Shown here piece by piece: positions 894 to 50,152 of a stretch of DNA of 64,000 nucleotides. A model generated the notes under the pieces. That model saw nothing but the letters and a program-made list of their open reading frames with translations, made no database searches and had not been told where the DNA came from. A program made the position numbers and the translations under genes. The stretch is from Xanthostigma xanthostigma (Eukaryota; Arthropoda; Insecta; Raphidioptera; Raphidiidae): assembly GCA_963575645.1 (NCBI GenBank), contig OY754468.1, positions 52,463,665 to 52,527,664 of the forward strand, in the 5' to 3' direction. Each line of letters opens with the position of its first letter. The stretch's first letter is position 1.

Positions 894-3800
894 ATGCCCT
901 CGAAAAAGCGCACGAGGCTGGAAGAAAGGCTTCAAAAAGAAGCTCAAAAATTGAAAAGTCAATTGGAAAAGGGTTAGTGATGAAGAAGATTTGTTTAAAT
1001 TATATTTCTGTCGTTAAAAAGAAAATTTTGCGCCTGATCGATAAGCAGTACGCAGTACGAACGATAAACTTATGATAACATTTTTTTTTTGTTCATAGAA
1101 TTGGCCCCAAAACGGGGATCTGGTGAACCGTTACACCTCCAGTGTTGGGAAGATGAACTGAGTCCTGCACAGCTATCGCGCAGTTCAAAAGTTGATCAAG
1201 AACTGACCGATATTACCAACAAACTAGATGCTTTGATCAAACAGCATGGAGGCGAACTGATTTATAAAGGCGATCTTTCGATGGCCTATCAACTCGGCAC
1301 TACGTTAGTAAATTTATGAATACTTACAATTTTAAAAGTTGCAGAATTAGAGGCCAATTGATTGCACTGATTTTTCCATAGATACATATATTTAATAGAT
1401 TGCGGATACACTAGCGCCTCCTGTACCTCTTAGAAGCCATTTTGTACGTGGAAAACGCCGTAAAAAGCGCGCGAGATTCAAAAATATTAATTATTTTATA
1501 ATATGATTTTATTGAGAAAAACAACAAAACTCACAGTAAACAGTGATATTTCGCTCCAAAACTTATTTTTATACTGAAACGTTTCAAAAATTACAAAATT
1601 AACCATAAATATAATGTAAAAGCTTAGAACATTTTACATTGTCAATTTGGTATCAAGGTTGACAAGCATTGATGCCAATCTGACAATGTAAAATATTCTA
1701 AGCTTTTATATTATATTTATGCTCAGTTCTGTAATTTTTTAAATGTTTCAATATAAAAATAGGTTTTGGAGCGAAATATCACTGTTTACTGCGAGTTTTA
1801 TTGTTTTTCCATTAACATCATATTATAGAATATTTAATCTTTTTGAATCCCGCGCGCTTTTTACGGCGTTTTCCACGTACAAAATGGCTTCTAATTGGAA
1901 CCATTCCGCACAATGCTCAAGGATAGGCATCCGCTATCTATTAATATATATATATAGATTGATAGAACATGATTAATAACAAACAATAAAAAAAAGATAC
2001 TTGAAATTTCTACAAAATATTCTCTCTCTCTCTCGACATCGTTTCAGACAATCAGTCCATCTTCAGGAGAGTACACTTTGATTGGATAATTTAAAAACTA
2101 AAAAAGCATCGAATATTTACATGTATTAGAATATTTAATATTATATTTCTTTTCTTTTTTTTTTTAATAGACCCCCGGCTTTGGCATCACTATCGAATAA
2201 TTCATCGACTCCAGCCGTGCAAAGCAAGCAGGCAAACACATATCAGCTCATGGTGGACCCACGATTGGGACTTGTTGTCGGACAGGTTCAAACACCTACA
2301 GGTAAAACTTTTAAATTCACCATTTGCCATAAACTCAGCAATCCGTTTCCGATTGTTTCTTTATTTTTTACTAGCGGTCCCATCCGGTTTTACCCGGGTG
2401 CAAAAGAATGAATGGGGAAGGAAGGGACATGAGTACACACATTCATCTTAGTTTACCGAGATGAATGTCGTGTCCAAATTTCATGATGATCGGAGTTACC
2501 GTTCAAAAGCTTTTGTCGATAAAGAGCAGTATTTAAACTTTTTTTAACTAATAATAAATTTTTTTAAATGAATTAAATAAAATTAAAATAAATTTAAATG
2601 TAAGCCTCAGAAGAAAGCAATGTAAAAAATAAAAAAAATAAATAAAAATATATTCACCCAACATGGGGCTCGAACCCACGACCCTGATATTGACAGTCGC
2701 ATGCGCTACCGATTGATCTAGTTAGTGCATTTCACATGAATAGAAGCTTATTTTTGAGATACTTTTTGCAACATTTTTCATTAAAGCTCCGCTCCTAATC
2801 GTCGTAGCGTAATATTATATAGCCTATAGCCTTCCTCGGTAAATGGGCTATCCAACAAAAAAAATTTTATTCAATTTGAACCAGTAGTTCCTGAGATTTG
2901 CGCGTTCAAACAAACAAACTCTTCAGCTTTATATATTAGTATAGATTTGTCGCTGCAACCGTACTGAATTTTTAATTTGAACATTTTTGTTTGCATCGTA
3001 GGTAAAGCCCAAACTGTTGCACCTCCGGCAACTCCGACAACGCCGCAATCTTCGGGCGGCAGCAAAAATAAAAAGGGCGGTCGCAATTCGACAAGCGGGT
3101 CGAGAAATCGTCAACAGACCGCCCAGCAAGGCAGCGGTGAGTTTCGTAAATCTGTCGTGACGTTTTCGTAATAAAATTAGAAGAAGAAAAATAACTTTAA
3201 ACATTACCATTGCAGCTTCTGTTCCGTCAATGCCAACGGGAGTTCGACCGACGGAGAGTACTGCCGTCGGCGGATTGGCAACCGGTAAACCGGCTCCTAT
3301 CGTTGATCTCACTACAGACGACGGACGTCCTGCTGCCGATTCCAGAGAAGTCTCCTTCAATAAACTGCAAGGTAACACAATTGAATGGCCACTTATCACG
3401 AGTTTGCTGCAAAAACACTTTTACCTTTAGCGTTTATACAGTATGTAAACACGTAAGGTGAAATTAACATTGGGAAAAAATGACTGGATCAGAGTGAGCC
3501 TTGAAATCTTGTTTTTCAATTTGACAGATAATATTCTTTTGCAAAATGAATGTGTATACTACCGAAGAAAATATTCAAATGATAACAACATAATCGGACT
3601 TTTTTTATTAATGGGACATTAAATTCCCAAAAATACTTAAATATGGTGCGAGATCAAATATCTCCGCCTATTCGTGTTGAACCTAAAGACATTGGGTCAC
3701 TGATTTACCAACGCGCATACGTCATACCAGTCAGACAATTTTTGAATGAAATGTTTCCAAACAGATGGAGTTGTTTTTTTGTTTTATTTTTGTACAAAAA

Positions 3801-6800
3801 AATTAAAATAATGATTTATAAGAGCTTTTTATTATTAAAAAAGTCAAGTAAAATAAAAATAAATCAAAATAAAACAGAAATCCTCAAGATTACCACGATA
3901 ATTCAATAGAAATAACAATTAATGCAGTCATGGCTAACTCTGATCCAAGTATTTTTTCCCAATGCTAATTTCCCTATGTGCACCTTACGCGTTTACATAC
4001 TGTATATTGTACGATTGAAGACTTTTGACGCATTCTCGGAAAATTCGGCGGTTTCTTAAATTAAAGACTTGTCAATGCATTAGGATTCCAATTTTGGATT
4101 GGAGATTTTAAATGGCGGAGATAATTTAATAAGTATTCGTGAAAGATTGAAGTTTGTAAACTTCGGCACGTTTGCCGTTTATAATATGAACCCTTTTGAA
4201 ACTCTGAATGTTTTTTAATGGTATTTTTTTTATTTTATGAGAAATGAGAAGTACAAATGCCAAAACAATAACAGGTTTAGTAAAATAGATTTCTTTTTTT
4301 GGATATTTAAAATCTTTTCGTTATACAAAGTGTACATTTTCAACGTTGATTTCAGGCAAGACGTTCCCGTCGTTGGTCGTGGTAGCCAGGCCGCACTTAA
4401 AAGCCAAGGAATCGGCCAACATCAACGACAGACCGACGCTCGATGCCAAAGTAAAATCGGTGCTGATGCATACGCCGACCAAATTCACCGAGTGGCTCAT
4501 TCAACAGGGTCTCGTCCGATCGGAACAGACTTGCGCACTACATCCCAGCTCGAAACTTAAACTCGGTAATTATTTCTTTTAGACGGAGAGCTGGCTACGG
4601 AGAAAATGGGTGACTCGGTGCAGAGCTGAAAATTTGCAGAATAATAGGAGATAGTACAAGTAAGTAGGGAAAAAATTGCCAGAAGGTTAGGCGGAAGATA
4701 AAGAGCCGCCAGAAGGCGCTAATGTTGCGAAAAATCAGTGCACTTCTGGCAATTTCTATACTTATTCTGTCATTCAAAACTAGATTATAATATATTATAT
4801 ATATTATACATTATATAGTTATAAGGGCATACTGAAAATTCAAACACGATATAATAATTACATTCGACAAATATTCAAAATTAATGTCATTTTGATAGAA
4901 ATAAAATTAATCGTCATATATTTTCATTAATAAAATTACGTTGTTATGACAACGTAATTTTATTAATTTATTTAATTTTATTTCTATCAAAATGACATTA
5001 ATTTTGAATATTTGTCGAATGTAATTATTATATCATGTTTGAATTTTCAGTATGCCCTTATAACTATATAATGTATAATATATAATCTAGTTTTGAATTA
5101 CAGAATAAGTATAGAAATTGCCGGAAGTGCACTGATTTTTCGCAACATTAGCGTCTTCTGGCGGCTCTTTATCTTCCGCCTAACCTTCTGGCAATTTTTT
5201 CCCTACTTACTTGTACTATCTCCTATTATTCTGCAAATTTTCAGCTCTGCACCGAGTCACCCATTTTCTCCGTAGCCAGCTCTTAGTCCATTTCTCTTTA
5301 CACGACTTACTTTATAGGCTCTGTGCACGAAGCCTACTAGCGCTGCTACTGGGCAATAGAGAATTATTGAACTCACTTTTTATGGAAATCACGACATGTT
5401 TCTATGGTGATAAGTCAGAAACTTTAGCTGGCCATTATGAGTCAAAAAAAATTGTAATAAGGAAAACTGATGTAAATTTGTTTACGCTGACAGCGAAACT
5501 TCAAATTAGGGCGCCAATGGTCTTTATTTTACTTAAATCGCCATCAGCGCAACAGCCCGGAACACAACAAGCATTTCCAGATCGCTTAGTTTTCCTATGT
5601 TTTCTTTGTAACTAAAAAACTTCATAAAATTATAACTATTTTCACTTTTAATAAACATTGCTCACTGACATACGGAAAATTTGAGTTTGAAGTTTCCCCT
5701 AGTGCTCACCACGAACGCTCGCATCGAAAAATTTGTAACTCCGCCTCCCTGCGCATAGCCCATAGAACGTCTCAAACTTCAAAATTATCTACTTTGATCT
5801 CCGATAATCGATTCTTACCGAAACGATTTTTTTACTCGACAGGAATGTACAGCGATGTATCGAAATTCCCGTATTCCGGTGGATATGTCTGGATAAGCGA
5901 ATGTTGTCCGCAGCGTTTCGTTTCCGTATTCAGCGGTTCTTTGTTCGAAGCCGCTTCACATCCTCCGAGCGTCTTGCTTAAATTGATCTATCATTGGGCG
6001 TGCCAGACAAACGTACAAAACATCGTACAGTGGGTGAGTTCTTGTAGAGTGTTGTAAAACAATAATAATAATAATAATTTATTCCACTTTTTCCATATAC
6101 ATAATAATATAGGACCTATAGGGGGCTATGTTGCCCGTACATAGGATGGCCCTTACAAACTAAATATATAATTAAATTTATTCAACTCATGCGCGTTATT
6201 CATGTTTTATCATGCCTAAAAACCGAACCCTAAATAGCCATTTACCGACTGGTGACAATTACTTGTCATAACTCAATGAAGATTCCTACTAGCTCGGCCA
6301 TTGTGGAGTAATGAAAATAAACGTAACTATTTTCTGAGTCGTAACGAAATAGTAGGTAACAACAACTCCCTGTTGTTACCCATTGAGGCTAAAATTGAGA
6401 GGCCGAATGTTTTCGACATGGAGTTTATTCATAACCGGCTAACCTCAAACCAAAACATTGAATCGTGCTGTTTGGTGCTGTTAGTATTGACAGTTTTTTT
6501 TATAAAGAAATAAATAGATATTTACAACATCTCATTATAATTAAAACATGAATAACGCGCAATTGTTGAATAAAATTATGGGCGCAACTTGTAGGCTAAG
6601 TCATGACCTGTCCGCGCGATGAATGACTTAGACTACTAGTTACGCCAATAACTATTATTTAACATATCATTTTACTTCCTTCTTTTTATACTTATACTTT
6701 TTTTATTTATTTTATTCTCTTTTCACTTTTTGATTTCAATTATGTCTTTAGGTTTTTTTTTTGTCACAAAAACATCATTTCTACATTTTATTAATTTACT

Positions 6801-9800
6801 AATCAACTTTTATTTGTCTTATCACTTTTTTCACTTGCTTTTTTAACACTTAAGTTTTTTAAACTATTTGGTAGAACATTAAAATACTTTTTTGCATAAC
6901 TTATATAACTCATTTTTCCTTTAGTTAATGTATTTCTTGGCACTTCAACACTTTATTTCTTGTATTTACTGGATAATTGTTATATTCAATTTTTTATTTA
7001 CTGTATTGATGAACTATTGTATTTATTGCGAATACCTGTTTAACTTTTAATGGGTTAAAATGGTTTATATTTAAATGAGATGTTTGATCGCGACGCCAGT
7101 TGTCGAGCGTTCATAATATCGTTAATCGTGATTTTTTTACAGGTCAAAGTCGATAATCTATACGTAAAAGGACTGTTTACATGGCTCAGGGCTGCTTGCA
7201 CTACGGCTTTGTACCAACATATCGGTTTGATGGGGGGCCCAGGAAAACGCATTGAAGTAAGTTTGATACAGCAATGACTTTAATAAAAAAAAAAGACTGG
7301 TTGCACTCCGGGAGTGCTGGCGGAAGTGAAAACTTGAATATTAACGTCTTAATTTTTTGCATTTAGAAGCATTGTTTATTTATTGGCAACACTTGTAAAT
7401 AAAATGGTTTGTATCATAGATTGCATTTTTATGTACGATATTTCAACGCTAGATGTCTAACGTTGTATAAAAAATAAAATGGTTTGTATCATAGATTGCA
7501 TTTTTATGTACGATATTTCAACGCTAGATGTCTAACGTTGTATAAAAAGTATCTGGCAATTACTATCACTTAGAGAGGCTCACCCAGTTCTTACTTTTCC
7601 TGACGCGAGTTTAACATTTTTTACCCATTACAAAAAAAAGTGTACAACGCCGCTAAAGAAGTTTTCACTTCAAAAATCCGAGAATTGCTGAACAGAGAGC
7701 TCTTCTGCTGTTTCATCTCAATCGCGTGCAGAGCTATACTGCACGAACGGACTTAATAAACCGTGCAAAAACGTCACGTTTGTTCGTAACGTCAACTCAC
7801 TGAGTAGCCATTTCGCGAATTTCACAAAACGCGCTTGAAGAAGTTTTACGTCAATAAAATAGAAATAATTATACGTTCACTAATCGTAGGTCGGAGTGAT
7901 TTCTTTGGGTACGACTTCACAAGACGGACATCAGCGTCAAGTGAAAGTTGAAGTACTCGGTATCCTGGACGGGGAAGCAAAACAAGTAAGACTCAGAGCC
8001 GTCGAACCGCTGGCCGACGGCGACAGGAATTACAAACGGCGATTTTCGAAGATTTTGGAACCGTTAAACCAGTGGGTGCACAAGGAAAGTATCATTATGA
8101 CCGATCTGACCGTCGACAAGAGCTGTTTGAACTCTCTCGGATTTTCACACGTGCTCCAGTCGTCTTCGGGCGACGCGACCAGCGGCAACCAAACTGTCAT
8201 GGAATATTTACGACGGATCGTGCCGAGAATGTTCCAGAATACACTCTCGCTTCTTAGCCGACAGATCATACAACAGTTTCTCGACGAATTGGTAAGTTAT
8301 TTTTGTAGCACTTTCAATTTTCTTCAATAGGGTTATTGACAAAATTTCAAAAAGTATTTAAAATTAAAGAATAAAGGTATATGTACCCGTAAAAAATATT
8401 TTTTTTTCATCAATATAACAGATTTGACTCATTATTAGTTGTTTTTTATTTTGACTTTAAATTCTGCGCCAAAACGTCAATTGACCTTGACAGCCATGTT
8501 TACTGATTGCCTACGTCACAGTAGGCAATCAGTAAACACTAAGCAAGCTGGTACAACGTGACATATAGCATTATAACCAACAAAGTGTTGCATTTAATAT
8601 GATTGACAGAGTACAATGAATACACCAGAGAACATACACTGAACAGAGATAACGAATACACATGGGGCAGTCAGTGGCACACAGCTACCGGCCATGTTGA
8701 CTGATTAATGACGTCACGCGCTGTGATTGGTGTTTGAAATCACGTGACACATAGGTTAAAAATCGTGATTTTATTTATTTATTTTAATATATTTAACGCA
8801 CTTATTTAATAAAAATAATAATTCTAAACGATATTTTAAACAATAAACTTTCATTATAACAGTTTTATATTTAATTTTAATCACTGTCAATAACCCTAAT
8901 GACAATCAGATTTCAATGAAAAATCAATTTGTACTCGGACTTTCGATGCGAAACTGTGGGAAAAAGACAGTTCTAAATGCGGGTACTGAAGCGCTCTCAA
9001 CTCAGGAATTCAATTGCAGGTTTGGAGAGAATGGTACGGATCGACAGCTGCACAAGCGTTCGACAATATGGTACAACATCTGGCCGAACAGACGCGCATC
9101 GACTCTCCGGACACGTTGATCGTGCGTTTGAACAAGATAGCCGCGAATCCGTTTAAAAACTGGAGCTTCTACCACGAACAACAACAGAAAGTCGACACTC
9201 ATCCGGTCCAACCGAGTACGTCGGGCGCATCTTCTTCCACGTCGAGCAAACGCAGCCGCAAACGTCAGTCGGTGACGCAAACCCCGCCGCCTCCGGAACC
9301 CAAGAAGGCCAAGACTCAGAAAGAACAGACGGCGCCTGTCATCGATCTCGAATCGCCGCCCCCCGAGCCTTCCGGAGCACTCGAAACGTACTATTACGGC
9401 AGACTTCCCGGAAAAGAAAGCACCATGACCCAACACGTTAATATCAACATTAAGTGCTGTGTTTGCAAGGTATCTTTTGTTTTTTTTTTTAATTTATTAA
9501 ACAATTGCCACTCAATTTTACAAATTCACGCACTGAACATAGTAAAATATCAAGATTCCAAACAGTCAATATCTCAATAGACTAAAGATACAAGAAATTT
9601 TAATTGAAATATTTAGCGTAATAATATATTATAGGTTACTAGTGTGACCTGTGCGAATTATTCGCACTAAATAAGTATAATAATTATCACTTTACAAAAT
9701 TATTTTTTAAATATGATTGCAGGTATTCAATTTGTTTCTAATTTTGCACACTGCTTATAACGTTCTTCTTTTTGTTGTATTACAATATGAAGCTCAGATG

Positions 9801-12800
9801 ACAGATCGAAGAAATATTTTACTAAAATTGTCATATAGAGGCGCAAGTAGCAAAAGCGTTGAGCTAAGCCGTCAGATGGCATCATGCAGCATTGCTGTGA
9901 CGTTGTTCAGCGTTGCTCGCTGTTTCAAAATTAAAGCCGTCAGATGGCAGTATGCAGTATTGTGTCTGTTGTATTACAATATGAAGGTCAGATGACAGAT
10001 CGAAGTGTTGACGTTGTTTCAAAATTAAAGCCGTCAGATGGCATACGTTGTTCAGCGTTGCTGTATTTTAATTAATTTACAAAAACAAAAGCAATAATAC
10101 ATTTTTTAGTTGTCGATGTCAGTAGAGCAAGCAATTATCTGTAAAATGATATATAATTTATGTGGAGAAATTGTGAGGTTTTTTCTGAAAAGGGAGGCAA
10201 ATATCTTTAACCTTAGCGTATTAATATATATGATTTTACCCGGAAATAAATGGGCTTTTAAAGAGTGATAATTTCTTTCAAATCAGTTCAATAGTTCCTG
10301 AGAATGCCCTCGATACTTAATCGAACATTAAAATATTTCAGACGTCTTTCACGAACAACATCCGATTCCTCGACCATCTTTTGGCGCACGCCCACAACAT
10401 TCCGCCCAACGCGGAGGCTGCCCAGTGTCGATTCTGTCTGGCGATGTTGTCGTCCGCCGCTGCGCTCGAAACGCACATCAACGAATCTCATCCCGGTAGC
10501 ACGTTCGTTCAAAACGCGCTCATGTGCGTCATTTGCGAAATGCGTTTCTCGACGGCGAACCAACTCACCAAACACATGTCGAGCGCGCACGTCGCTGCCG
10601 AGATGCCCTACGAGTGCGGCACGTGTCATAACCGGACGTCGTCGCACCGGGAAGCCGTCGATCATTTCTACAACAAACACGACGGCACCGCCATGTTGCA
10701 GTGTCCGTTCTGTCTGAAGGTGGGGCATGTCGAGTTTTTAACGACGCTATTGAAAATAGTACAGCTTATGAATTAGGCTTTTGAAAAAAAAATAATTATC
10801 GATTTTTTTATTGTATTTTAAAACTTTATTAATATAAATAATATTGATAATCGATGCGAAAAACTTTGAAAAAACTTTTTTTAAATTAATTATAAGCAAT
10901 TTAAAATTGATAAAATATTAAAAAAATCACGCGACTGCAAACGCACTAAAATTGTTTTTGACAGTTGTGACGTCATAATGGTAAAATGTATATACGCAGT
11001 ATACTATCAATGGCTTCTACATGTGTATTGACTAAAACATTATGACGTCACATTATGTTCGGGAAATGTCGGCGCGTTCTCGGAACTGGGTACAAAAATT
11101 TATTTTTAATTTGATATAACTTTTGAATTATAACGAAAATAAAAAAAAGAAAAATAGTTTTGTTATAAAACTTATATACGATCTTTCCATTTATGACAAA
11201 AAATTTCATTCAAAAGCCCAATTATATTTTTTTGTAGATTTCTACTACAGCTATGAATCGAACAAACTCGAGATCGAGAAGTAATTCTGTTCCTCATTTG
11301 TTACAAAATTCGGCGCGAAATAGAACTTCTATTTTATGCACTATTTTTTTTTTGATGATAATATGCAGTATGTAAACGCGTAAGGTGCACATAGGGAAAT
11401 TAGCATTGGGAAAAAATACTTGGATCAGAGTTAGCCATGACTGCATTAGTTGTTATTTCTATTGAATTATCGTGGTAATCTTGAGGATTTCTATTTTATT
11501 TTTATTTTACTTGGCTTTTTTAATAATAAAAAGCTCTTATAAATCATTATTTCAATTTTTTTGTACAAAAATAAAACAAAAAAACAACTCCATCTGTTTG
11601 GAAACATTTCATTCAAGAATTGTCTGACTGGTATGACGTATGCGCGTTTGTAAATCAGTGACCCAATATCTTAAGGTTCAACACGAATAGACGGAGATAT
11701 TTGATCTCGCATCATATTTAAGTATTTTTGGGAATGTCCCATTAATAAAAAAAGTCCGATTATGTTGTAATCATTTGAATATTTTCTTCGGTAGTATACA
11801 CATTCATTTTGCAAAAGAATATTATCTGTCAAATTGAAAAACAAGATTTCAAGGCTCGCTCTGATTTTTTCCCAATGTTAATTTCACCTTACTTGTTGAC
11901 ATACTGTAGTTTCATGTACTTAATTCTTCAATTGTTTTAAATAGGAGAATCTAGCCTGTAGTTCTTTTTTTTGACGTGATAACGTCTTATAAATTGATGA
12001 ATCACCAATCTTATAAATTGATAAAACACCGGCTGCATGCACGAAAAAGTGTAACGTTCCTAACGTTCCGCCTGACCCTGTGCGTGCTTTTCTCGAAAAC
12101 GGCCCTAACGATTTGGATGAAATTTACTGAAAAGGGATTTTGGGGGGCAAAAAATCGTTTTAGCTAGGTTTCATCTCTCGAAAAAATCGTTTTCATACAA
12201 ATTTTATCATTATAAAAATCAATTTTTTGACGTATGAAAATACTTAAATATTGTAAGTAGGTTTTGGAATTTTATATAAACAATGAAACAATTGTTTTCA
12301 AAATATTATGACAGTTAATCTTTGAGACTTAATAAATACGAAAGAAAGAAAGTTAAAAAAAAAAACAATTATATTATAGGTGGTGAGTAATTTTAATAAA
12401 TAAAATTAACCTGAATTTGAAGCAAAAGATGCAATATCATAGATTCGAATTATTATAATTATTATATAAATTTAGGTTATGTATTACGGAATACGTTATC
12501 ACGTAAAACTATCGTCCGTAAACCGACTTTACAGACAACCAATTTTTTTTTTTTTTTTGCAGTCTGTCTCCGTATGGAACGCCGGCAAACCGTACACTCA
12601 GAACGTGTCGTTCTTTTTGACTCATTTGCAAAAACACCAAAAGAAAGGAACGGCGAAGAAATGTGGAAAATGCGCCTTATGGTTCGTTCACAAGGGTACG
12701 TAACGTTAAAACGTAAAACGTATTGTGGTTACGGCTCCGCAATGTTGAATTTGACGTGTGAACTTGTTTTGCAGGTACGCTGAAAGAACATCAAATCAAA

Positions 12801-15644
12801 AGCCATTCTTCTCTGTTGGGAAAACGCGGCGTGCAGATGTGGGCGCCGACATCGACCAGCGTCATATTGGCCAGACCTAAGGACGTCACTTATGAGAAGG
12901 CGCCCGAAAAAGCGGAAGAAATGCCGCCGGTCAATCAAAACTACAGCTCCCTCACTTTCATAGTTCCCGACGGCATGTCTTGCAAAGAGTGCGATACAGA
13001 TCTCGGAGAGGACGACCATTTCCCGTACGTTTATAATTTTTTTTTTTATTATAATTGTTCGTCGATACACAATAATTTTTTAAAGTGTAACTTTTATTCT
13101 ATCGCCCCGAATTTTTCTGGCCGTCTGTCGCATGTCGCATTACAGGCGGCCGCGGAGTAGGGGTAAAGTGAAAAGCGTTCGGAGTAGGCGCTCGGTAGAG
13201 CAGCCAAGGCCAATATGGCGGCGCCCATGGTTAGCATCAGCTGACCGTGTAGTATGTATAACACATAGTCAGTCTGTCGTGCGGGCAAGTGCTGTACAGT
13301 GTTTACATGTTTTTATTCGTGTATTCATGTGAATATTGTTGTTTATAATTAATCGTGATGGATAAGTGTCTACAATCCAATAAAAGTTTCACTTGCGTCG
13401 TGGTTTCTTAAAACCACACAACTGTTTTTTTTTTTTTTTTTGTAACTTCAAAACGAGTCGACTGAACTTTATGAAACCTTAAACCGTCGACTGGGTTGTC
13501 AATTTTGACAAAATTTTAACAGTCGTTACAATGCTTTAAATACTTTTTTATGTTTTTAAAGTTCCGTACACCCAATGAAAAACCTGAACCATTATATTAA
13601 GATCATTCTCGTGTCTGTCCGTCTGTCACTGCTTATTATTTCCGAACCTATTGAACGGAAAAAGTTGAAATTTTGTACATGAGTTAGATGACCCAATCAC
13701 GAACGTATAGCGTAAATAAACGAATTCCGATTTTGGAGGTTTATTTTGGGGGGCAAATCAGAAAATAAAAAACAAAATATTTTTGAAGTGAAAACTTCTT
13801 TAGCGGCGTTGTACACTTTTTTTGTAATGGGTAAAAAATGTTAAACTAGCGTCAGGCGTCAGATCGAAAATTTTTATACAACGTTAGACATCTAGCGTTG
13901 AAATATCGTACATAAAAATGCAATCTATGATACAAACCATTTTGATCGAAAATTCGTAAGACGTTAATATTCAAGTTTTCACTTCTGCCGGCACTCCCGG
14001 AGTGCAAACCTTTTTTTTCTAGTGAACCGTGTGATATATCAAATGAAAAGGCTCGTTATTAAAAATACAAATACAGTGTAACCTCTTTATAACGAATCTC
14101 AAGGAACCAAGCATTTTCTTCGTTATAAAGAATTTTCGTTATATGGAGGGAAGAAAGAAAAATAACCAAATTTCACCTAATTAATTTATTCCAAACACAT
14201 ATAATCTGTTAACTTTGCCTGACGTTTTTTGCTATGCCAATATTTGTTCAGTATTTTATTAAGTATCTTATGCATGTCTTAAGATGTGGTGGAATCATCT
14301 TCATTAAACAATAGGAATTTTTCGATAAGTTGCATCGAGTACTTGTTGAATAGTTAGTGATGATTCAGAATCGTCCTCTTTACGTCTGTAAATATTTGCT
14401 GACGCCTAAATATGAGCATATTTCTTCGTAATAGAGAATGGCTGTTGCGCTATAAAGAGGGTATTAATGTATGGGATTTAAGGTAAACCAACCAAACTGT
14501 AAAGATTTCTATGTTTCGTTATAACGAAGGACGTTATAAAGAGGTTACACTGTACATTTTTTTTTATAATTTTAAAACGCATAATTTAAAAGGTATTAAA
14601 GAAAATATCTACGAAAATCGAGCATTCCTCCCTCTTATCTCCGAAACAACTAAGATTCAAATTAAAAAAAAAAGGGAATGTGAGGTTTCACTCATAGTTA
14701 ACAGAAAAACCTAAACCCTCTCCGCGCGAGTTCAATTTGAACTCGATCGGTTTTTATTTTAGCACATACTGCATATTATGTAGAACATTCTATAGAAATA
14801 AATAAAAAATCGCAGGATTGTGGACAATTATTAGATTTATTAATAAAACTAATAATTGTCCACAATCCTGCGATTTTTTATTTATAATTATCTCGATGGA
14901 CACGATATCTAATATATATTCTATAGAAATTTATTACTTAGTTGTCGAGCGCCTAAAATATAGAATGTCATATTCGGACCTAATATTTTCCAAATACCGA
15001 TCGCAAGTGTCCCGCGAGGTAATTTTGTTTGTTTGTTTCGTTGCAGAGGCGTTCAGAATTGTTCGAATTGTCAATACGCCACGTGCTGCGCGAAGGCAAT
15101 GCTCGAACATTCGTCTACGTGTCAGGAGAACTCACAGCCGAATGTCGCGTCGACATATTTACCGGTCGAGATGTATTGTGTCTGCGGCTTCAGCACCAAC
15201 GACGGAAACGAACTGGCAAAGCACCTGGTGCTCTGCGAACACAAGTCGGCTTATCCGACGATAGAGAGCGCCAAAGCCGCGACCGTGACGCACAGTATGC
15301 TCGGCGTTTTGGGATTGGTGCGCAAGCCGGCCGAGGAACGCCCGGCGGCGGCGGCGGCGCCGACCAAGAAGGAGATCGAAGAGAAAGAAGAAATCCACGA
15401 AGAGCAGACTCACGACGAAGGACACGAAACGAGCGGCAGCGTTAAACCGGATCCCGAGTCGGTGGTCGATATCGAACCGGAAACGATCGGAGGAGAAATA
15501 CCGGAAGCGCCGCTAGCGGACATAAAAACGGCAGAAGGCGAAATGGACGTCGACGAAGCTGTTCCGGAACAGCAGAATGAACCGATGACTGTCGATGACG
15601 CGACGACGCTGGGCGCGGAAGCCGAACAAATGGATGTCGAGTGA
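894..15644 (+). CDS. row: Row / POGZ-like zinc-finger chromatin protein with a transposase-like core (14 exons, 1143 aa)
   Basis: Exons 894-972, 1099-1303, 2171-2301, 3002-3136, 3216-3371, 4356-4565, 5843-6033, 7143-7256, 7890-8291, 9020-9469, 10342-10719, 12563-12695, 12775-13024 and 15047-15644 join in frame to 1143 aa. In Drosophila, Row is a nuclear partner of WOC and HP1c. Visible parts: basic KKRTR near the start; the motif MVDPRLGLVVG near residue 120; SUMO-interaction-like PIVDLTTDD and APVIDLES; about nine C2H2-type fingers from residue 687 (CCVCK...HLLAH, CRFC, CVIC, CGTC, CPFC, CGKC, CSNC, CVCG); an acidic C-terminal tail. Residues about 275-555 resemble a Merlin/ISXO2 transposase (see findings). 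The upstream acceptor implies a 5' UTR exon. Family assignment rests on the MVDPRLGLVVG and finger pattern. Introns are packed with MITEs. Confidence 0.85.
1432..1892. mobile_element. Foldback element, near-palindromic
   Basis: Two arms of about 200 bp (1432-1640 and 1690-1892) are inverted copies of each other, beginning with AGAAGCCATTTTGTACGTGG and ending with its complement. The arms meet around a short loop. There is no coding capacity. It lies in row intron 2. Confidence 0.75.
2369..2946 (-). repeat. Dispersed repeat with tRNA-like core (copy 1)
   Basis: Read on the minus strand, it runs from ATACTAATATATAAAGCTGA to an end with the complement of AGCGGTCCCATCCGG. A tRNA-like segment lies inside at about 2661-2735, with B-box GGGTTCGAGCCCC. 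The second copy is at 40291-40930 on the plus strand. The architecture suggests a SINE or tRNA-bearing non-autonomous element. It lies in row intron 3. Confidence 0.6.
3439..4002 (+). mobile_element. Tc1/mariner-type MITE, family B copy 1
   Basis: The TIR starts CAGTATGTAAACACGTAAGG and ends with GCGTTTACATACTG, with TA on both sides (3437-3438, 4003-4004). CAGT ends and TA duplication point to Tc1/mariner. Other copies are at 11366-11906 (inverted) and 59082-59646. An open frame of about 88 codons recurs in copies 1 and 3 but resembles no known protein. It lies in row intron 5. Confidence 0.8.
4581..5290. mobile_element. Foldback element, family A copy 1
   Basis: The left end AGACGGAGAGCTGGCTACGG is mirrored at the right by CCGTAGCCAGCTCTTAGTCC. 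The arms of about 340 bp are nearly complete inverted copies around an AT-rich loop near 4930-4965. The left end is only 15 bp past the row exon 6 donor. Related copies are at 36976-38790 and 54152-54797, and the element at 27168-27957 shares the ends. Confidence 0.8.
6061..6990 (-). mobile_element. LINE 3' end, interrupted by a TIR element
   Basis: On the minus strand, about 6803-6945 encodes VPRNTLTKGK and YFNVLPNSLKNL followed by a stop. This is the pattern seen at the C-terminus of many non-LTR reverse transcriptases. The 3' UTR ends in an (ATT)n microsatellite at 6061-6080, as in CR1/Jockey-like LINEs. It is 5'-truncated, like most LINE copies. A 370-bp inverted-repeat insertion (about 6190-6562) splits the 3' UTR. 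It lies in row intron 7. Confidence 0.6.
6190..6562. mobile_element. TIR element inside the LINE tail
   Basis: The ends GCGCGTTATTCATGTTTTA and TAAAACATGAATAACGCGC are inverted repeats, and LINE-like sequence continues on either side. The interior also holds shorter inverted repeats and no recognisable transposase. Insertion into the LINE tail makes it younger than the LINE copy. Confidence 0.6.
7294..7675 (-). mobile_element. MITE family C copy 1 (two internal 74-bp units)
   Basis: The left end GGTTGCACTCCGGGAGTGC is followed by GAAGTGAAAACTT, and the right end is the complement of AAGTGAAAACTTCTTTAGCG. Two copies of a roughly 74-bp unit containing ACGCTAGATGTCTAACGTTG lie inside. Other copies are at 13783-14016, 28495-28836 and 56545-57150. 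It lies in row intron 8, 37 bp after the exon. Confidence 0.7.
8330..8896. mobile_element. MITE family L copy 1
   Basis: The ends GGGTTATTGACA and TGTCAATAACCC are inverted repeats flanked by TA (8328-8329, 8897-8898). A near-identical copy is at 55100-55653. There is no coding capacity. It makes up most of row intron 9. Confidence 0.8.
9750..10075. repeat. Locally duplicated repeat with GCCGTCAGATGGCA units
   Basis: The segment GTTGTATTACAATATGAAG occurs twice (about 9775 and 9966), and AAAGCCGTCAGATGGCA recurs around 9867, 9932 and 10027. Short stretches have been duplicated in tandem within row intron 10. There is no coding signal. Confidence 0.55.
10772..11222 (-). mobile_element. MITE family M copy 1
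   Basis: The ends are ATTAGGCTTTTGAAAAAA and the complement of ATTGGGCTTTTGAATGAA. It is an inverted copy of 29704-30145. The interior carries TGACGTCATAATG-type palindromes. It lies in row intron 11. Confidence 0.75.
11366..11906 (-). mobile_element. Tc1/mariner-type MITE, family B copy 2
   Basis: Inverted relative to the copy at 3439-4002, with CAGTATGTAAACGCGTAAGG at the left and ...ACATACTG at the right. It is slightly shorter than the other two copies. It lies in row intron 11. Confidence 0.75.
11969..12542 (+). mobile_element. Helentron-like repeat, family D copy 1
   Basis: It begins TTGACGTGATAACGTC and ends with ACGTAAAACTATCGTCCG through CTTTACAGACAACC, followed by a T-run. The inverted motif ACGTGATAACG/CGTTATCACGT lies at the left tip and about 45 bp inside the right tip. 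The right tip can form a hairpin (CCGTAAA with TTTACAG). A 300-bp unrelated stretch sits in the middle. The right end is 20 bp from the acceptor of row exon 12. Confidence 0.55.
13082..13424 (+). mobile_element. Helentron-like repeat, family E copy 1
   Basis: The left tip contains AACTTTTATTC, mirrored by AATAAAAGTTTCACTT about 45 bp from the right tip. The right tip has a perfect hairpin, GTGGTTT CTTA AAACCAC, followed by ACAACTG and a long T-run. This fits the short subterminal inverted repeats and 3' hairpin of non-autonomous Helentrons (HINEs). A 90 percent or better identical copy is at 42163-42520. It lies in row intron 13. Confidence 0.55.
13560..13780. repeat. Possible dispersed repeat in row intron 13
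   Basis: The stretch with CTGTCCGTCTGTCACTGC and CGAACCTATTGAACGGAAAA resembles the conserved block of many insect dispersed non-autonomous repeats. No second copy in this window confirms it. There is no coding capacity. Confidence 0.3.
13783..14016 (+). mobile_element. MITE family C copy 2 (one internal unit)
   Basis: The left end is GAAGTGAAAACTTCTTTAGC; the right end is CACTCCCGGAGTGCAAACC. Only one copy of the 74-bp internal unit is present. It lies in row intron 13. Confidence 0.7.
14074..14552. mobile_element. pogo/Tc1-type MITE, family G copy 1
   Basis: The TIRs CAGTGTAACCTCTTTATAAC and its complement are flanked by TA (14072-14073, 14553-14554). The TIR pattern matches pogo/Tigger-like elements. 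A second copy is at 21368-21874. It lies in row intron 13. Confidence 0.75.
14799..14884. repeat. Perfect 36-bp inverted repeat (hairpin)
   Basis: Arms 14799-14834 and 14849-14884 are exact complements, including AATCGCAGGATTGTGGACAA, around a 14-nt AT loop. It lies about 160 bp upstream of row exon 14. Confidence 0.85.
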
Positions 15645-42884: not shown

Positions 42885-43351
42885 TTTAAAAATGTATGTG
42901 TTTTAACGATGAACAACCGACACGTTTTGTAGCTATTGAAAATTCATTATAGCTAGTCGATAAAAATTATTTTGCATATTTAATGAAGTTCTTTCTTTTT
43001 CTAAAACTGATTTCCAACTTGATAAAAGTGATTAATACATAATGTACAAAAAGTATTGCATAAATTATTAATGTCAAGCTTTGTGTAGCTTCGATCATTA
43101 GAAGGTCATTTCTGTTTATACGAACTCTATTAAAAGTTAGAAATCGCTTTTTTATAATGCCCCTATTATATTTATGTACTGAAATTTTGGCCAAGTTAAA
43201 ATGCGCGCATTGTGCGTTCAATTATGCAACTGTTTTCTTGATTACATGTTGATTACTTTATGCACATTATTATATACAACCAGCAAAAAAAAAAGCAACA
43301 TAACCTAAAAACCTCTATTTTATGCAGTATTTATGACTTATTTATGTAAAT
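42885..43351. promoter_or_regulatory. Divergent promoter region, channel gene / ZAD zinc finger
   Basis: 467 bp between outward-facing start codons, AT-rich, with no recognisable transposon. It probably holds both promoters. Confidence 0.4.
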
Positions 43352-46300
43352 ATGGAAGAATCATTAATTTTATCAAATGATTTGAATCGCGTATGTCGAA
43401 CGTGTTTATCTGAAAAAAATTTAGATGAATTGCAGTCAGTTTTTGACGAACGAGTAAATGATATGATAATGGAATTAGCCTCCGTTAAGGTAAATTTTTT
43501 TTTTTGTTTAAATTGTTAAGATATGTAATGCTTGCTTTTTACCTAATGTTTTAGCGTTATTGTTTATTGAATGTGAGCACTTTTTGCAAGTGAAGTGTTT
43601 TCGTAGTTTAGTGGGTTTATTTAAATAAAGAAATGAGGTTAAGGATTTGAAAAAATAACAAATGAACGTTTGCAGATCTTACAAGATGACGGTCTACCAG
43701 GTGTGATATGCGTTCAGTGTGTGCTGCAAGCAGGCCTTGCATACTCGTTTAAACAGCAATGCGAACGCTCCGATTTGAAGCTTCGAAATGTTTTATTTCC
43801 GTTAGAGCAGCAAGCATCGAACGAAGATATTTTTTTACGGTCTGGCTATAATCACACCCAACCACAAATAGTCGAAGAAAATGTTTTGGAAAACGCCACC
43901 ATCGAAGTGAAATACGATAATACAATAGTAAAATATAATAACTCAATTCTTAAATATGACAACACGATAGAAATAAGCAATTTTGTTAAAATCGAAACAG
44001 TTGATGCTTCCATACAAGTAGGGGTAAGATTATTATTATATAATTATATTATTTATCTCGTAAGGTATGCACACGCGGTATATAATGCCTCTACTACACA
44101 CGTGGCCAGCACCGCCACTCAAATAAGTGCCTATCATCGCCGCGATGATTGCCTAACCCTCCACACAATCGTGCCGGTCCGATTGTGTGTACGGGCGCAC
44201 GATGCTGGCCACGCATTCCTTTGATGTACCGACAATCAACCGATTACAGGCGATTATGTCCACGCACCGACGAATATGCCCTCTACACAATCGTGAGTGC
44301 CTGTAAGTGGCGGTGCTGGCCACGTGTGTAGTGGAGGCTTAATATATTTAAATTTTCAGAAATCGTTCATAACAAAGCAGAGGCCTAAAAGGTCGACAAA
44401 TACAGATTTTTTCAATAGTTTAATAAGAGACGAACAGCTGGCCATCGATATTGATATTAACGAAGACAGATTGGAAGTTCAGAATGAGTGCGACAGTGAA
44501 ACAAAAACCGATGAGAGAGACGAAACAAAGACTGATTACTCCTGTACGGAGTGCGGTAGAAAATTTAGATTATTAAGCGGCTTAAAAGTTCATTTGGCGA
44601 AGCACGGCAAAAAACATAAGTGCGAAGTATGCAATAAAGACTTTTCGTGTAAGTAATATTATTTTTTTATTTGTTGATATCTACTAGTGATGTGCCGGGT
44701 CGTTAAAAATGTATATCCGCGGATACGGATCTGAATACTGATATTTGGTTTCAAGATCCGCGGATACGGATACGGATCTTAACTTTCTTAGAGTACGCGG
44801 CGGTAAATATTGCACATCGACCTTTGGAAAGAGACTATCTGTTATGGGAAAAAGTTATTGACCTCTTTAAGAGTTAACTCTCATAACAGATTGTCTCTTT
44901 CCAAAGATCGATGTGCAATATCTCATTATAAAGATAGTTTTTTAGTACCTTTGAGTTATGTACTATTGGTATGGTACTCACTACGATAAATGTTTGCAAT
45001 ATAAAGGTGCCAAATACGATTTTAAAAAATAAAAAATAATCTGAATGGAATTTAACAGTTTTTCATTATTACCTAATCACCTATATATATAAAATTTCAT
45101 CTATGAATTGAAAATCAATAAGGTAAAAGATCCGCCAAAAACTAACGGATATGGATCTTCCTTCTCCCTCGGATATCCGCGGATACGGATATCCGGCACA
45201 TCACTAATATCTACACACGGCTGTTATTGTGTTACGATAAAGTTTTTGTAGTGTAGATAAATGAAATCTTCCACACTCACAAATAGAACATTGAACAAAT
45301 AATTTGAGTAGATTTTCTTCGCAAAACAATAAACGCACCACCCCGTCATTTTACCTCATCCTCGAAAAAAGTTTTTTGACCTCAATAGTGAGGAAGATGC
45401 ATCTCACTATAATAATCGTTGTATGTATAACGACGTATTGTATTTTTCCGCGATAAATAAATGATTATTATTCGACAGTGTCCAAACAATTGAGTAACCA
45501 CATGAAGTTGCATCCGGACTTTCGACCGTACAATTGTTCGGTGTGCGAGAAGGCGTTCGCGCTGAGCGCCAGCTTAGCCAAGCATATGAGGACGCACGGG
45601 GGTGAAAGACGACACCTGTGCACCACTTGCGGCAAACGATTCTACGAGCCGAGCCATCTAGTCGTTCATATGCGCACACATACGGGAGAAAAGCCAATCG
45701 TTTGCGCCGTATGCGGAAAAAGATTTTCAGATCCGCACGGTCTCGTTGCCCACAACAAAACACATACAGGTATTGTGAAAATAATCTACTAATTGAATGA
45801 ATGTCGGCACCTAACCTAACTAAATTATTATTGTTTAGCGATGGCTTATTTAGAGGGTTCCGTTTACGCGTTGGTTTAATTTTAGGAGAGAAAAAATACG
45901 AATGCGATATTTGCAAGAAACGATTCGCTCATTCCTTCGTACTCACGGCTCACCGGCGGGTCCATACAGGAGAGCGACCGTACGTCTGTTCGGTTTGCAG
46001 TACGGCCTTCGCTACGTCGTCTTATCTCACCATTCACATGCGGACTCACACCAAAGAGAGGCCTTACAAGTGCAGTCTTTGTCCGAAGGTAACCGGATTT
46101 CACTGACCGTTTTCTTAAGGCCATATTCATCGAACACTATTAAAGATAGAAATTACTAATCTTGGAACAAATTTATTCATTGGATTAAAATTTACTTTCA
46201 ATTCACCAATCAAAATTGCACGTAGGAAAGAATAAATATACCCTGCTCTATACTCCTTGTTCTTTTTGTTGAATATTTTGAAGTTCACCCAAAAATCCGG

Positions 46301-47871
46301 CCGATGGCGTAAGTGCAAACGTCAGAACAAAAAATTTCATAAAATAATAATGTTTTATCCTAACCCAATTGCACACAAAACTTCCACCAACTTTAATGTT
46401 TTACAACTATACATTTCACAAAAGGTTAATAAACAACACATAAATACCTTCACAAGAACAACTGTAGATATAATACTCCACGCTTATAGGTTAGGTATTA
46501 TGATTTATGTGTATGGGAAGACCCGCCATATTTATGTGGCGGCCATTATTATTTTATCAGCGAATTAATATTGGTACCCGAGTATTTGGACAGAATAGAT
46601 TTATACCTTCAGTAAATATAATTATACTTTATAGTTGGTGAATTGAATAGGTCATATGCATAAAACTCCAAATTGGTTAAAATTTTTATTTCGAAATATA
46701 TTTTAGTTCTTGATCATAACGTAATGGTTATTTTATTAATCTAATCACTGAAAAAATACAAATAATAAAAAAGAAATGTAGAAAATAAGCGCTATTTTCG
46801 AATTTTCAAAACGCATCGTGACGTCAGAGTATATATCAACAACAGTTTTCATGACGACTGTGTCGTCTCACAGTAAGATTATGTCAGTATTTAGAGAAAA
46901 CAACAAATAAACTTCATTTAGAACATTGATAATTTGACATCAAGGTTGACATGCATAGTATATCATGACGTCACATAAGCCCGCGAACATGGCCGATTGT
47001 GTCTATTTTTGAATGTGAAATTTAATATTTTTTTCTTATGATAATATTACATTTTTAAATGATTATCAATATTTTTTCCGTATTATGGCTGACTAAATAA
47101 TCTATTAAAAATATAAAAAAAAATCATGCATATGACCTATTATCGCTATTTATTCAGAGGAATAGTTACCTGAAGTACAAATGAGCCGATTAAATAACTA
47201 CTTACGTTCAGTGAATACGGCCATATAAAAATTGTGTTGAGGGTAGGTAATGCACCGTTCGATTGCAGGCTTTCATAAGCAAGTGCGCTCTCGTGGCTCA
47301 CAACATGACTCACACCGGGGAAAAGAGATTCGTGTGCACGGTGTGCGGCAAGAGGGCGGCGCGCGCGGCCGATCTCGCAATTCACATGCGCAGTCATACG
47401 GGAGAGAAACCGTACGCCTGTGATCAGTGCCCCAAACGCTATCACACGTCGAGCAATTTAGCCGCACACAGACGCAGTCATACCGGCGTACGGAATCACG
47501 TGTGCAGTCATTGTGGCAAAGCGTTCGCCGATGCTCGCACGCTCAAGTGTCACATACGAACGCATACAGGTGAGTAACCTGACCGCAGATTGCGTAAAAG
47601 TCTATTCGTAAAGGCGAACATATTCCAGCTGCCAGACCGCAAAGGTCTCGGATAAAAAGTTCTCAACAAATGAAAGTGAAAAAAATGAATGACTGCCATT
47701 ACACGTTTTGTAAAGTGGAAATTCTTTTCAGGCGAAAAACCGTACATGTGTCAAGTGTGTGGACATCGCTTTGCGCAGTCCGGTCAACTTGCGTCGCATC
47801 GTAAGACTCACGCGGTACCCGCAGTTTCGACCGTTATGGTTCCTGTTCAAATTATGACCGTTCAACAATAG
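43352..47871 (+). CDS. ZAD-type C2H2 zinc-finger protein with 12 fingers (7 exons, 569 aa)
   Basis: Exons 43352-43489, 43676-44023, 44360-44648, 45479-45769, 45886-46088, 47269-47569 and 47732-47871 join to 569 aa. The N-terminus is a ZAD (zinc-finger-associated, homodimerising) domain, typical of insect transcription factors: VCRTCLSEKNLD, then GVICVQCVLQAGLAY, giving the four zinc cysteines. An acidic linker of about 140 aa follows. Twelve C2H2 fingers with TGEK-type linkers occupy the C-terminal half. They split across exons without loss, e.g. CEVCNKDFS | LSKQLSNHMKLH. Finger 9 (CTVCGKRAARAADLAIHMRSH) lacks the usual core aromatic residue. ZAD proteins bind specific DNA sites as repressors or architectural factors. 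I cannot name the orthologue. Confidence 0.92.
44087..44338. mobile_element. TIR element in ZAD gene intron 2
   Basis: The ends GCCTCTACTACACACGTGGC and its complement (one mismatch) border a 250-bp GC-richer interior that itself repeats CACAATCGTG-type motifs. TAA/TTA lies next to the ends, which may be a PIF/Harbinger-type target. Confidence 0.65.
44685..45206. mobile_element. hAT MITE, family F copy 2
   Basis: The ends TAGTGATGTGCCGGGT and CCGGCACATCACTA are flanked by an exact 8-bp duplication ATATCTAC (44677-44684, 45207-45214). Same family as 18997-19535. It lies in ZAD gene intron 3. Confidence 0.9.
46119..47222. mobile_element. TIR element in ZAD gene intron 5
   Basis: The left end GGCCATATTCATCGAAC and the complement of the right end (GGCCGTATTCACTGAAC) are imperfect inverted repeats, and similarity continues for about 70 bp. 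The 1.1-kb interior has no recognisable transposase. Confidence 0.55.
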
Positions 47872-49149
47872 ATACAACGAATAGGTAATACGTGTAATCA
47901 GGAAGGTGATTAAAATAACAAAATTATAAGATTTGTAAATTTGCATAGACATTTGATAGCACTAAATAATGAAGTAGGTTTTTTATTTTTGTTTATTTTT
48001 ATTAAATACCAGTTTTCTGAGATTAACCTGAACAAAGAAGAAAACTTAACTTATTGACTATTGTCCATCTTAAAAGTATTATTTTTGTAAGTTATGTATG
48101 ATTTAAAATTTTTATATTAAAAAAATATATCTGATTTCAGTTGTTTTTATTATTTGTCAGTTTTATTATCCCTTTACAACCGACGAAACTTTTTTTTGTT
48201 TTTGATCATTTAGGGTTCAAAGAACCTAGAAAAATTAATAAGAAAAATTGTATACCCCTTCTTTGGGCGCCCGGTCTATGTTGCATTTTATGTGGAACGA
48301 TTTTCTGTAATACATATCCACATTTAAATATACACTTTTTTATTTATATAAGAAACAATAATTGTTTCTTATATAAATAATTATAATTATTACACTAGTG
48401 TCAAAATGAAAAAAAAAATTGGAAAAATCACCAGAAATATAATGGTCAGGGCATTGATTGAGGTATTGTAAAGATGATTAACCAAGTAACGACAAATTTT
48501 ATATAGTAAACCCCTTACGTTTCATACCCCTGGCCCTCAAACTGAATGTTGTTTTGTGCTTCCACCTACATTATGGTTTAACTAAAAGTTCAGATATTCT
48601 CACTACGGAAAACAAATGTAGTTATGATGCTAGTTACCAGACGGCCAAACCGTTGCCAGCACAATTCACTATGGAAACTATTCTACACTCGCAGATTAAA
48701 AAAATTAGCTTATGATGCTCGTCAATAGGTGGCCATCTATTGGCGAGCATCATAAGTGGTCTCATTTTGGTTCACTGGGTAACCGATCTTCCTATAATAT
48801 TTTAATCAATGGTCAGGGTTTAAACAATAGTTTCGGATAGTTTTCAGTTTTTATATGAAAAGTTCGTAAGTCCCAGCTCTACAGGAAGTTGTTAAATTTG
48901 GTGTGATCAGGGGACAAAATTCTTATTTATTAGCATTATTAGTAAATAAATGTGCAAAGGTTATTGGTTAAGTAAGGTTAACGTAAGGCTAATTTTGGGA
49001 AGGATTTATAATTTGTATTGTCAGTGTGGAAACGGGCTTTAGACAAAATGTACAGAATTTGGTAATAAACATCGCAGTTATTGGTTTGTGTTAATTTTAA
49101 ATAAAAAGCTACAATAATCATTTCTAAATCGCCAACATAACCTAGAAAA
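47872..49149. other. Spacer between the ZAD gene and Ntmt
   Basis: No gene is supported. It contains a long AT palindrome (about 48336-48382, TATATAAGAAACAAT and its complement) and a 48-nt hairpin at 48709-48756. The rest is AT-rich with nothing recognisable. Confidence 0.5.
48709..48756. repeat. 48-nt hairpin
   Basis: CTTATGATGCTCGTCAATAG pairs with CTATTGGCGAGCATCATAAG (one T:G wobble) around a short GTGGCCAT loop. It is the size of a miRNA precursor stem, but it could equally be a tiny MITE remnant. Confidence 0.5.
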
Positions 49150-50152
49150 ATGGGGGATGGCGAAGTAAACATACCTGATTCTCGATTTTACGAAGATGCA
49201 GCTAAATATTGGTCTGAAATTCCTCCAACATTAGACGGTATGTTGGGAGGCTTTGGTTTTATATCCGAAGCCGATATTCAAATGTCAAAAAGATTCTTAC
49301 AACAAATGTTCGCCTCGAAAGACGGACCAGGAAGATTAAAAGCACTCGATTGTGGCTCTGGCATTGGAAGAGTAACAAAAAATCTATTAATTCCTTTATT
49401 TCAAGAAGTTGATATGGTAGAACAAAATGCTAAGTTTTTGGAAGGATCGAAATCTTACATGGGAAAGAAGCGTAAAAAAATCGGGAAACAGTTTCCCATA
49501 GGTCTTCAAGATTTTGTTCCCGAAAGTCACGCGTATGACGTGATCTGGTGCCAGTGGGTTTTATCACATCTTAAAGATGACCATCTCGTCGCTTTTATGA
49601 AACGATGCAAGTATGTAATAATTGAATTTTTATAATTTATCAATGCTTAAAAATCGTTTCGGATCGATATCACTTTCACAGTGCACTCGGTTGATGGTCG
49701 ATGTAAGTAAAATAAAAAAGCTCTTTTTTTACAGGGAAGGTTTAAAGACCAACGGTCTAATAGTCGCTAAGGAAAATGTGACATCATCGAACGAAATTGA
49801 AGTAGATAAACAAGACTCCTCTGTTACAAGGCCTTTACCGACTCTTCTCAGACTTTTTACTAGTGCCGGTTTAAACTGCATTAAATTAGTTCAACAGACT
49901 AATTTTCCGAAAGGATTGTATGCAGTTTTTGTATTCGCATTAGCACCTGACGAATCGTCCAAATCTGATTTAAAAGTGGAAGATAAGTCTGAACCTATTG
50001 TCTGTGATGATAATAGTTCCAATGAAAATTACTCCAAAGGAACTAATCAAGATACTCGAGCTACCGAATCTTTTGAAACTGAAGATGAACCGAATTCTCC
50101 TAACTTAGAAATTAAATTACAAAATATTAATTTATCTGAAAATGTATTATAG
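49150..50152 (+). CDS. Ntmt: Alpha-N-terminal protein methyltransferase 1 (2 exons, 292 aa)
   Basis: Exons 49150-49610 and 49735-50152 join to 292 aa. NTMT1/NRMT methylates the exposed alpha-amino group of proteins beginning X-Pro-Lys, including histone H2B and ribosomal proteins in insects, using S-adenosylmethionine. Visible motifs: FYEDAAKYWSEIPPTLDGML at the N-terminus; SAM-binding LDCGSGIGRVTKNLL; VDMVEQN; DVIWCQWVLSHLKDDHL (substrate groove); GLIVAKEN; the C-terminal strand GLYAVFVFAL. Human NTMT1 is 223 aa and ends at about this last strand; here a 60-70-aa acidic, Ser/Asn-rich tail follows. An ATTAAA lies just after the stop. Confidence 0.95.

Follow-up and report, generated by a model that had tools for sequence, protein, structure and literature searches.

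Merlin transposons are recognised by terminal inverted repeats that start with 5'-GG and by a target-site duplication of 8-9 bp; transposases of the Merlin/IS1595 (ISXO2) type are covered by the family PF12762. Vertebrate POGZ, which is linked to HP1 and is a neurodevelopmental disease gene, holds a POGZ-type double zinc finger (PF25429) and, C-terminal of its fingers, a transposase-derived domain of the pogo family. The protein Row (relative of woc, CG8092) of Drosophila presumably is the fly orthologue of POGZ. Here, we analysed a stretch of 64,000 nucleotides from the snakefly Xanthostigma xanthostigma (GCA_963575645.1, contig OY754468.1, positions 52,463,665 to 52,527,664 of the forward strand), called the window in the following, which contains a gene for a POGZ-type host zinc-finger chromatin factor that is probably row. 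The middle 285 residues of the modelled protein very probably descend from a transposase of the Merlin/IS1595 superfamily whose catalysis was lost, as judged from sequence comparison. The domain is collinear with Merlin/IS1595 transposases (PF12762) over residues 281-566, but unlike these it has changed columns for the first catalytic Asp and for the Glu, is split by introns and stands in one frame with a zinc-finger array. With POGZ the protein shares the double zinc finger and the presence of a transposase-derived domain, but here the domain is of the Merlin type and lies N-terminal of the fingers.

Drosophila Row is presumed to be the orthologue from the type of the fingers and from the name given to the gene in an initial annotation of the window, which was made from the letters alone. 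A review describes that Row binds HP1 proteins at promoters and that its depletion abolished HP1c recruitment to euchromatin (PMC9078007); CG8092-PA has an AT-hook and a zinc finger domain (PMC2669885), and Row (CG8092 PA) was among the constructs of a two-hybrid study (PMC5351981). The passages considered mention no transposase domain in Row. A survey of Merlin names other candidates for domestication and cites host-transposase fusions (PMC8101967). Its candidates are Merlin transposases kept without signs of mobility, and those for functional chimeras include a protein in which WD40 follows DDE_Tnp_IS1595; neither 'insect' nor 'relative of woc' occurs in its main text. Among the titles and starts of abstracts listed, no paper joined row with a Merlin or ISXO2 transposase; an earlier description is possible, and a weak match may already be visible in public protein databases. 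Fusion of a host protein with a transposase is a known kind of event; a fusion of this gene with Merlin seems to be undescribed in the literature searched.

Homology to Merlin/IS1595 transposases

The initial annotation had proposed that the gene holds a captured, catalytically dead Merlin/ISXO2 transposase fused to a zinc-finger array. A Pfam search (24,736 models) with residues 256-570 of the modelled protein, hereafter the domain, listed DDE_Tnp_IS1595 (PF12762) as the only family at E values up to 10, with an E value of 2.3e-4; the filters of HMMER drop most matches above an E value of about 0.1. The score was 21.6 bits for the domain and 18.6 bits (E 1.9e-3) for the whole protein and thus below the curated cut-off of 27. 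Therefore, profiles were built that exclude this protein. Of 68 IS1595 loci that were returned, 62 (L086-L147) were examined and 15 were kept by a filter for motif and length; together with eight plasmid sequences, one plasmid stretch (L080) being left out, they gave 23 prokaryotic rows. Another 20 rows were Merlin open reading frames (ORFs) of the same genome, chosen by eye: 17 pieces, two longer ORFs and one intact ORF of 314 residues.

With the prokaryotic profile the domain scored 21.1 bits, compared to 6.8 bits for the best of 5,000 shuffles. Addition of the intact Merlin ORF raised the score to 34.0 bits (best of 5,000 shuffles 7.8), and with the 19 further Merlin ORF pieces, which completed a 43-row profile, it amounted to 53.1 bits with an E value of 1.7e-18 for one comparison. 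With the latter profile, 5,000 shuffled versions of the 315 residues of the domain reached at most 9.0 bits and the reversed domain -1.9; reversed, the domain scored below zero with all three profiles. The match to the 43-row profile covered residues 26-311 of the domain and positions 32-299 of the 303 profile positions. When only the 20 Merlin rows made up the profile, the score was 23.8 bits versus 9.3 for the best shuffle. Likewise, hhalign aligned 223 columns of a Merlin/IS1595 alignment with 20 rows, of which 18 were used, with the domain at a probability of 97.4% and an E value of 1.3e-11, and blastp against 11 references found the intact Merlin ORF with an E value of 5.4e-5 over 259 collinear residues at 20% identity. 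Homology of residues about 281-566 to most of a Merlin/IS1595 (ISXO2) transposase is, on these comparisons, well supported.

That the match was produced by chance or composition, or that an erroneous gene model fuses the relic of a transposon with a zinc-finger gene, is extremely improbable in our estimate. When the 658 stop-to-stop ORFs of at least 40 residues in the window were scored with the 43-row profile, the ORF of exon 9 came first with 16.2 bits, followed by an ORF of a C2H2 gene (12.2 bits), another one (8.2), the ORF containing exon 7 (8.0) and one more C2H2 ORF (7.7). Cys pairs can thus lift unrelated ORFs to such scores with the same profile, which speaks for a chance match, but the C2H2 ORFs touched only its Cys-rich N-terminal stretch whereas the domain aligned along nearly its entire length. 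Since the C2H2 ORFs match through this stretch, short Cys-rich matches mean little and the long match of the domain is meaningful.

In the genome, the domain had no second match at an E value under 0.02, and the N-terminal zinc ribbon of IS1595 (PF12760) was listed by Pfam neither for the domain nor for the whole protein at E values up to 10. A search of solved-structure sequences with the domain gave two matches at E values up to 10, the best (E 0.99) being an unrelated enzyme; with the Merlin/IS1595 alignment A2 it gave 12 matches at E values up to 1, the best (E 0.12) being the ribosomal protein eL43. Scans of viral contigs with exon 9 and of genome contigs with a Merlin ORF fragment yielded 6 and 84 stretches that fit a pattern, respectively, and no relatives.

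Gene model, zinc fingers and parts of the domain

The window lies within contig G000:C5 of a 623-Mb genome in 28 contigs. The modelled gene extends from 894 to 15644 on the + strand and comprises 14 coding exons for 1,143 residues in a single frame, with no inner stop and a stop at its end; the start codon is assumed. All 13 modelled introns have GT-AG ends. Exons 6-10, coding for residues about 236-692, include the domain:

894-972, 1099-1303, 2171-2301, 3002-3136 and 3216-3371, + strand: exons 1-5, N-terminal part with PIVDLTTDD at residue 211 (splice-site model, open frame and motif scan)
4356-4565, + strand: exon 6, residues about 236-306, with FTEWLIQQGLVRSEQTCAL as counterpart of the Merlin N-terminal AVEYLRQRG...C segment (alignment to the profile hidden Markov model, HMM)
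5843-6033, + strand: exon 7, residues 306-370, with CPQRFVSVFSGSLFEAA as counterpart of Merlin S-I-x-x-G-S-F-x-E (HMM alignment)
7143-7256, + strand: exon 8, residues 370-408, running to GGPGKRIE directly before the first catalytic position (frame, HMM alignment and hhalign)
7890-8291, + strand: exon 9, residues 408-542, RNase H-like core by homology, with the second Asp in MTDLT
9020-9469, + strand: exon 10, residues 542-692, with the domain end DELVWREWYG (to about residue 566), a basic linker, PVIDLESPP at residue 647 and the first Cys pair of finger 1
10342-10719, 12563-12695 and 12775-13024, + strand: exons 11-13, C2H2-type fingers
15047-15644, + strand: exon 14, C-terminal half of the POGZ-type double zinc finger, acidic tail and stop

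The HMM alignment begins at residue 26 of the domain, which is residue 281 of the protein. The peptides quoted in the initial annotation were all located on the + strand, where and in the order it had given; two of them arise only by splicing, IEVGVIS across the junction of exons 8 and 9 and DELVWREWYG across that of exons 9 and 10.

A pattern scan of the modelled protein revealed six C2H2 or related patterns between residues 687 and 970, and Pfam placed the POGZ-like double zinc finger zf-POGZ (PF25429) at residues 928-967 with 48.9 bits (cut-off 27, E 8.8e-13). In the genome, this was the only place for zf-POGZ at E values up to 1 (23 candidates scored), with a genomic score under the cut-off because an intron splits the match. 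A model that wrongly joins a relic to a zinc-finger gene could be suspected because splice signals and frame are its only basis, but all 14 exons, separated by GT-AG introns, share a single frame, and the zf-POGZ score of 26 bits for exon 14 alone increases to 48.9 bits once exons 13 and 14 are spliced. This match across the junction supports the gene model and groups the gene among proteins of the POGZ type; row and 'POGZ orthologue' are presumptive names based on it.

Parts of the domain were then scored separately, with 2,000 shuffles each. The C half stood out with all three profiles (26.9 bits with the 43-row profile, best shuffle 5.8; 17.8 and 18.0 bits with the others), the N half did so with the 43-row profile (14.9 bits versus 9.5 for the best of 2,000 shuffles). 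Exons 6-7 alone stood out narrowly and with the 43-row profile only (10.7 versus 8.3 bits), and exons 8 and 9 alone with two of the three profiles (26.6 and 12.2 bits).

Several results weigh against descent from a Merlin transposase or against what is built on it. Besides the Pfam scores under the cut-off, these are the N half, which did not stand out with the prokaryote-only (-0.2 bits) or the Merlin-only profile (7.4 versus 9.2), exons 8 and 9 alone with the Merlin-only profile (-0.9 versus 8.6 in shuffles) and the lack of any matching family in NCBIfam and PHROGs; the placing in the tree, the model of exon 9 and two motif counts, all given below, belong here as well. The identity of only about 20%, the Pfam match under the cut-off and the weakness of the N half with two of three profiles would also fit a host domain that does not come from a mobile element and has an RNase H-type fold in common with Merlin/IS1595 by older ancestry or by convergence. 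This we consider very unlikely: IS1595 was the sole family listed among all Pfam models, and the likeness extends beyond the RNase H core into the N half when the combined profile is used.

Catalytic columns and the exon 8/9 junction

As aligned to the HMM, the domain has Gly in place of the first catalytic Asp (RIEVGVISL versus VEIDES), keeps the second Asp (IIMTDLTVD) and has Met in the column of the catalytic Glu. The conserved N-H-S motif is lost. When exon 9 was aligned by MAFFT with 27 bacterial cores (set A3; 37 cores passed, 34 listed), the Glu column was read as Gln. The intact D-D-E triad of an active Merlin transposase is therefore absent, the three columns being G, D and M or Q. 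Of the two acids that the initial annotation had seen as remaining, the Asp of MTDLTV indeed lies in the second Asp column, but the Glu of TVMEYL is at least one column off the catalytic Glu in both alignments.

In the 23 prokaryotic rows the first Asp was present in 23, the second in 22 and the Glu in 23, of which 15 rows had been preselected by a filter requiring the motifs of the first Asp and the Glu. The 20 Merlin rows, mostly pieces, had Asp (8), a gap (9) or Gly (3) in the first column; Gly was found because two of these pieces read into an intron and one is truncated. Since the Gly of the domain sits at a splice junction and Gly occurs in misread Merlin pieces, other junctions of exons 8 and 9 were tried. 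Up to 12 nt from the donor and 12-15 nt from the acceptor, one other in-frame pair was found, at 7256-7260 and 7890-7897, 4 and 7 nt downstream; it is weaker, the modelled donor GTAAGT being strong, and reads IEVMISL. Neither IEVGVIS, as annotated initially, nor the reading of the alternative junction has the Asp. With Gly for the first Asp and Met or Gln for the Glu, the domain should be catalytically dead, and activity as a DDE enzyme is not expected. Taken together, profile scores, catalytic columns and gene model point to the Merlin/ISXO2-derived, catalytically dead domain fused to a zinc-finger array that had been suggested initially.

Origin, fold and possible role

A tree of 31 rows put the domain on the Merlin side of the split between Merlin and prokaryotic IS1595 (88/92). 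The placing was not starred, the end branch amounted to 4.47 changes per site and the program warned that long branches meet; the position fits an old capture, on a branch so long that it cannot be placed firmly. Such a branch, together with the change of two of three catalytic columns and the loss of conserved stretches such as the N-H-S motif, is also what would be seen if the domain, while of Merlin origin, were neutral filler without a function of its own, kept open only since a frameshift would destroy the fingers downstream. We regard this as unlikely, because G-S-x-F-E, GGPG and the C-terminal DE..WR segment are still recognisable along the length and five exons were kept open; the origin from Merlin would be the same in either case.

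Most other Merlin matches of the genome are partial, and stops are frequent among them; the exception is the open 314-residue ORF used above, which lies at L002 1006-1947 (G000:C5:30273511-30274452), has D-D-E and scores 46 bits with DDE_Tnp_IS1595. Around it, at L002 600-2400, just one pair of inverted repeats of at least 18 nt was seen (18 nt, 78%). Given this single pair, the ORF could represent a copy that is old, kept or domesticated, or else its ends could lie outside the searched stretch.

In the Merlin copies L066-L068, an intron splits the codon of the first catalytic Asp (VEI-D, phase 1); L066 has Lys in the Glu column. The modelled intron 8 of row follows the Glu codon of GGPGKRIE, 4 nt before the Merlin position, and the weaker alternative pair of exons 8 and 9 sits exactly at it. 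By a rough reckoning, at least one pair of introns would come within 4 nt by chance in about 8% of cases. A shared intron was rejected as proof of descent, as the modelled intron is offset by 4 nt and the matching pair is weaker and was sought after the fact, and the coincidence is taken as a lead, not as proof. It may even be, though this is less likely than not, that the first Asp was lost when an intron inherited from an intron-bearing Merlin slid; IEVMISL would align without a gap to VEIDESL.

Ends of a transposon around the domain were looked for between 3400 and 16000 of the window, where 14 inverted pairs of at least 40 nt are present, two families of which, at 3437-4010 and 7290-7680, were traced as dispersed repeats. 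Terminal inverted repeats belonging to the domain itself were not recognised among these pairs, of which I2, I5, I10 and I14 are untraced, and no search for a target-site duplication was made. The first family is a repeat of about 570-580 bases at 3437-4010 (intron 5) and 11360-11908 (intron 11), in opposite directions and bracketing exons 6-11. In the genome, 40 near-full places of it were scored at 96-100% identity, the window copy included. The pair 3437-4008/11360-11908 was considered as old Merlin ends and rejected, since it is a dispersed repeat with inverted ends of its own and these 40 near-full places. The second family, also in opposite directions, lies at 7290-7680 (intron 8) and 13779-14018 (intron 13); 40 full or near-full places scored at least 98%, again with the window copy included, and the copy in intron 8 holds a perfect 75-nt tandem duplication at 7397-7546. 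Intron 6 contains a large fold-back at 4582-5288 with the arms 4582-4804/5066-5288 (223 nt, 95% complementary) and 4798-4910/4972-5084 (113 nt, 99%).

RNase H-like folds have the order b1-b2-b3-aA-b4 at their start. An AlphaFold model made from nothing but the single sequence of exon 9 had low confidence (predicted local distance difference test, pLDDT, 48.5; predicted template modelling score, pTM, 0.37) and showed strands at 2-9, 15-27 and 30-37, a helix at 46-65 and then helices only. Three strands followed by a long helix would correspond to the start of the RNase H order, which is only a hint, as there is no fourth strand and the pLDDT is low.

The domain is flanked by two [VI][VI]DL motifs, PIVDLTTDD at residue 211 and PVIDLESPP at residue 647. 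One of 2,000 whole-protein shuffles had as many, in a count made after the motifs had been seen. The pattern PxVxL matched twice, at residue 211 and, inside the domain, at residue 347, which is borderline (P 0.054 in shuffles). Motifs of the [VI][VI]DL type resemble ligands of the HP1 chromoshadow domain and SUMO-interacting motifs, and the two flanking ones are possible docking sites for either. In a possible mode of action, the fingers would bring the protein to DNA and choose the site, the dead domain would adopt an RNase H-like fold devoid of catalysis and serve as a structural platform for self-association, partner binding or non-catalytic contact to DNA, and the flanking motifs would dock HP1 or SUMO. 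We hold the chances for and against such a platform role to be about even.

If the Merlin descent is true, two related chromatin factors, row and POGZ, each hold a transposase of a different superfamily, and the capture of Merlin in an insect gene may parallel the capture in human POGZ. A shared job of a dead transposase fold in HP1-linked transcription control, such as self-association or docking of partners, would then become testable. More tentatively, and in our view less likely than not, an ancestral POGZ-type factor may have captured transposases twice, pogo in vertebrate POGZ and Merlin in insect row, both of them dead and reused as scaffolds; HP1-linked finger proteins would select such folds.

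Elsewhere in the window, a second Merlin-like gene at 44-48 kb was considered and rejected, since its ORFs of 12.2, 8.2 and 7.7 bits are C2H2 fingers aligned only at Cys-rich stretches. ORFs of a C2H2 gene lie at about 43337-47868 (+), the first of which by eye resembles a ZAD domain. Those at 49141-50149 resemble an N-terminal protein methyltransferase of the NTMT1 type.

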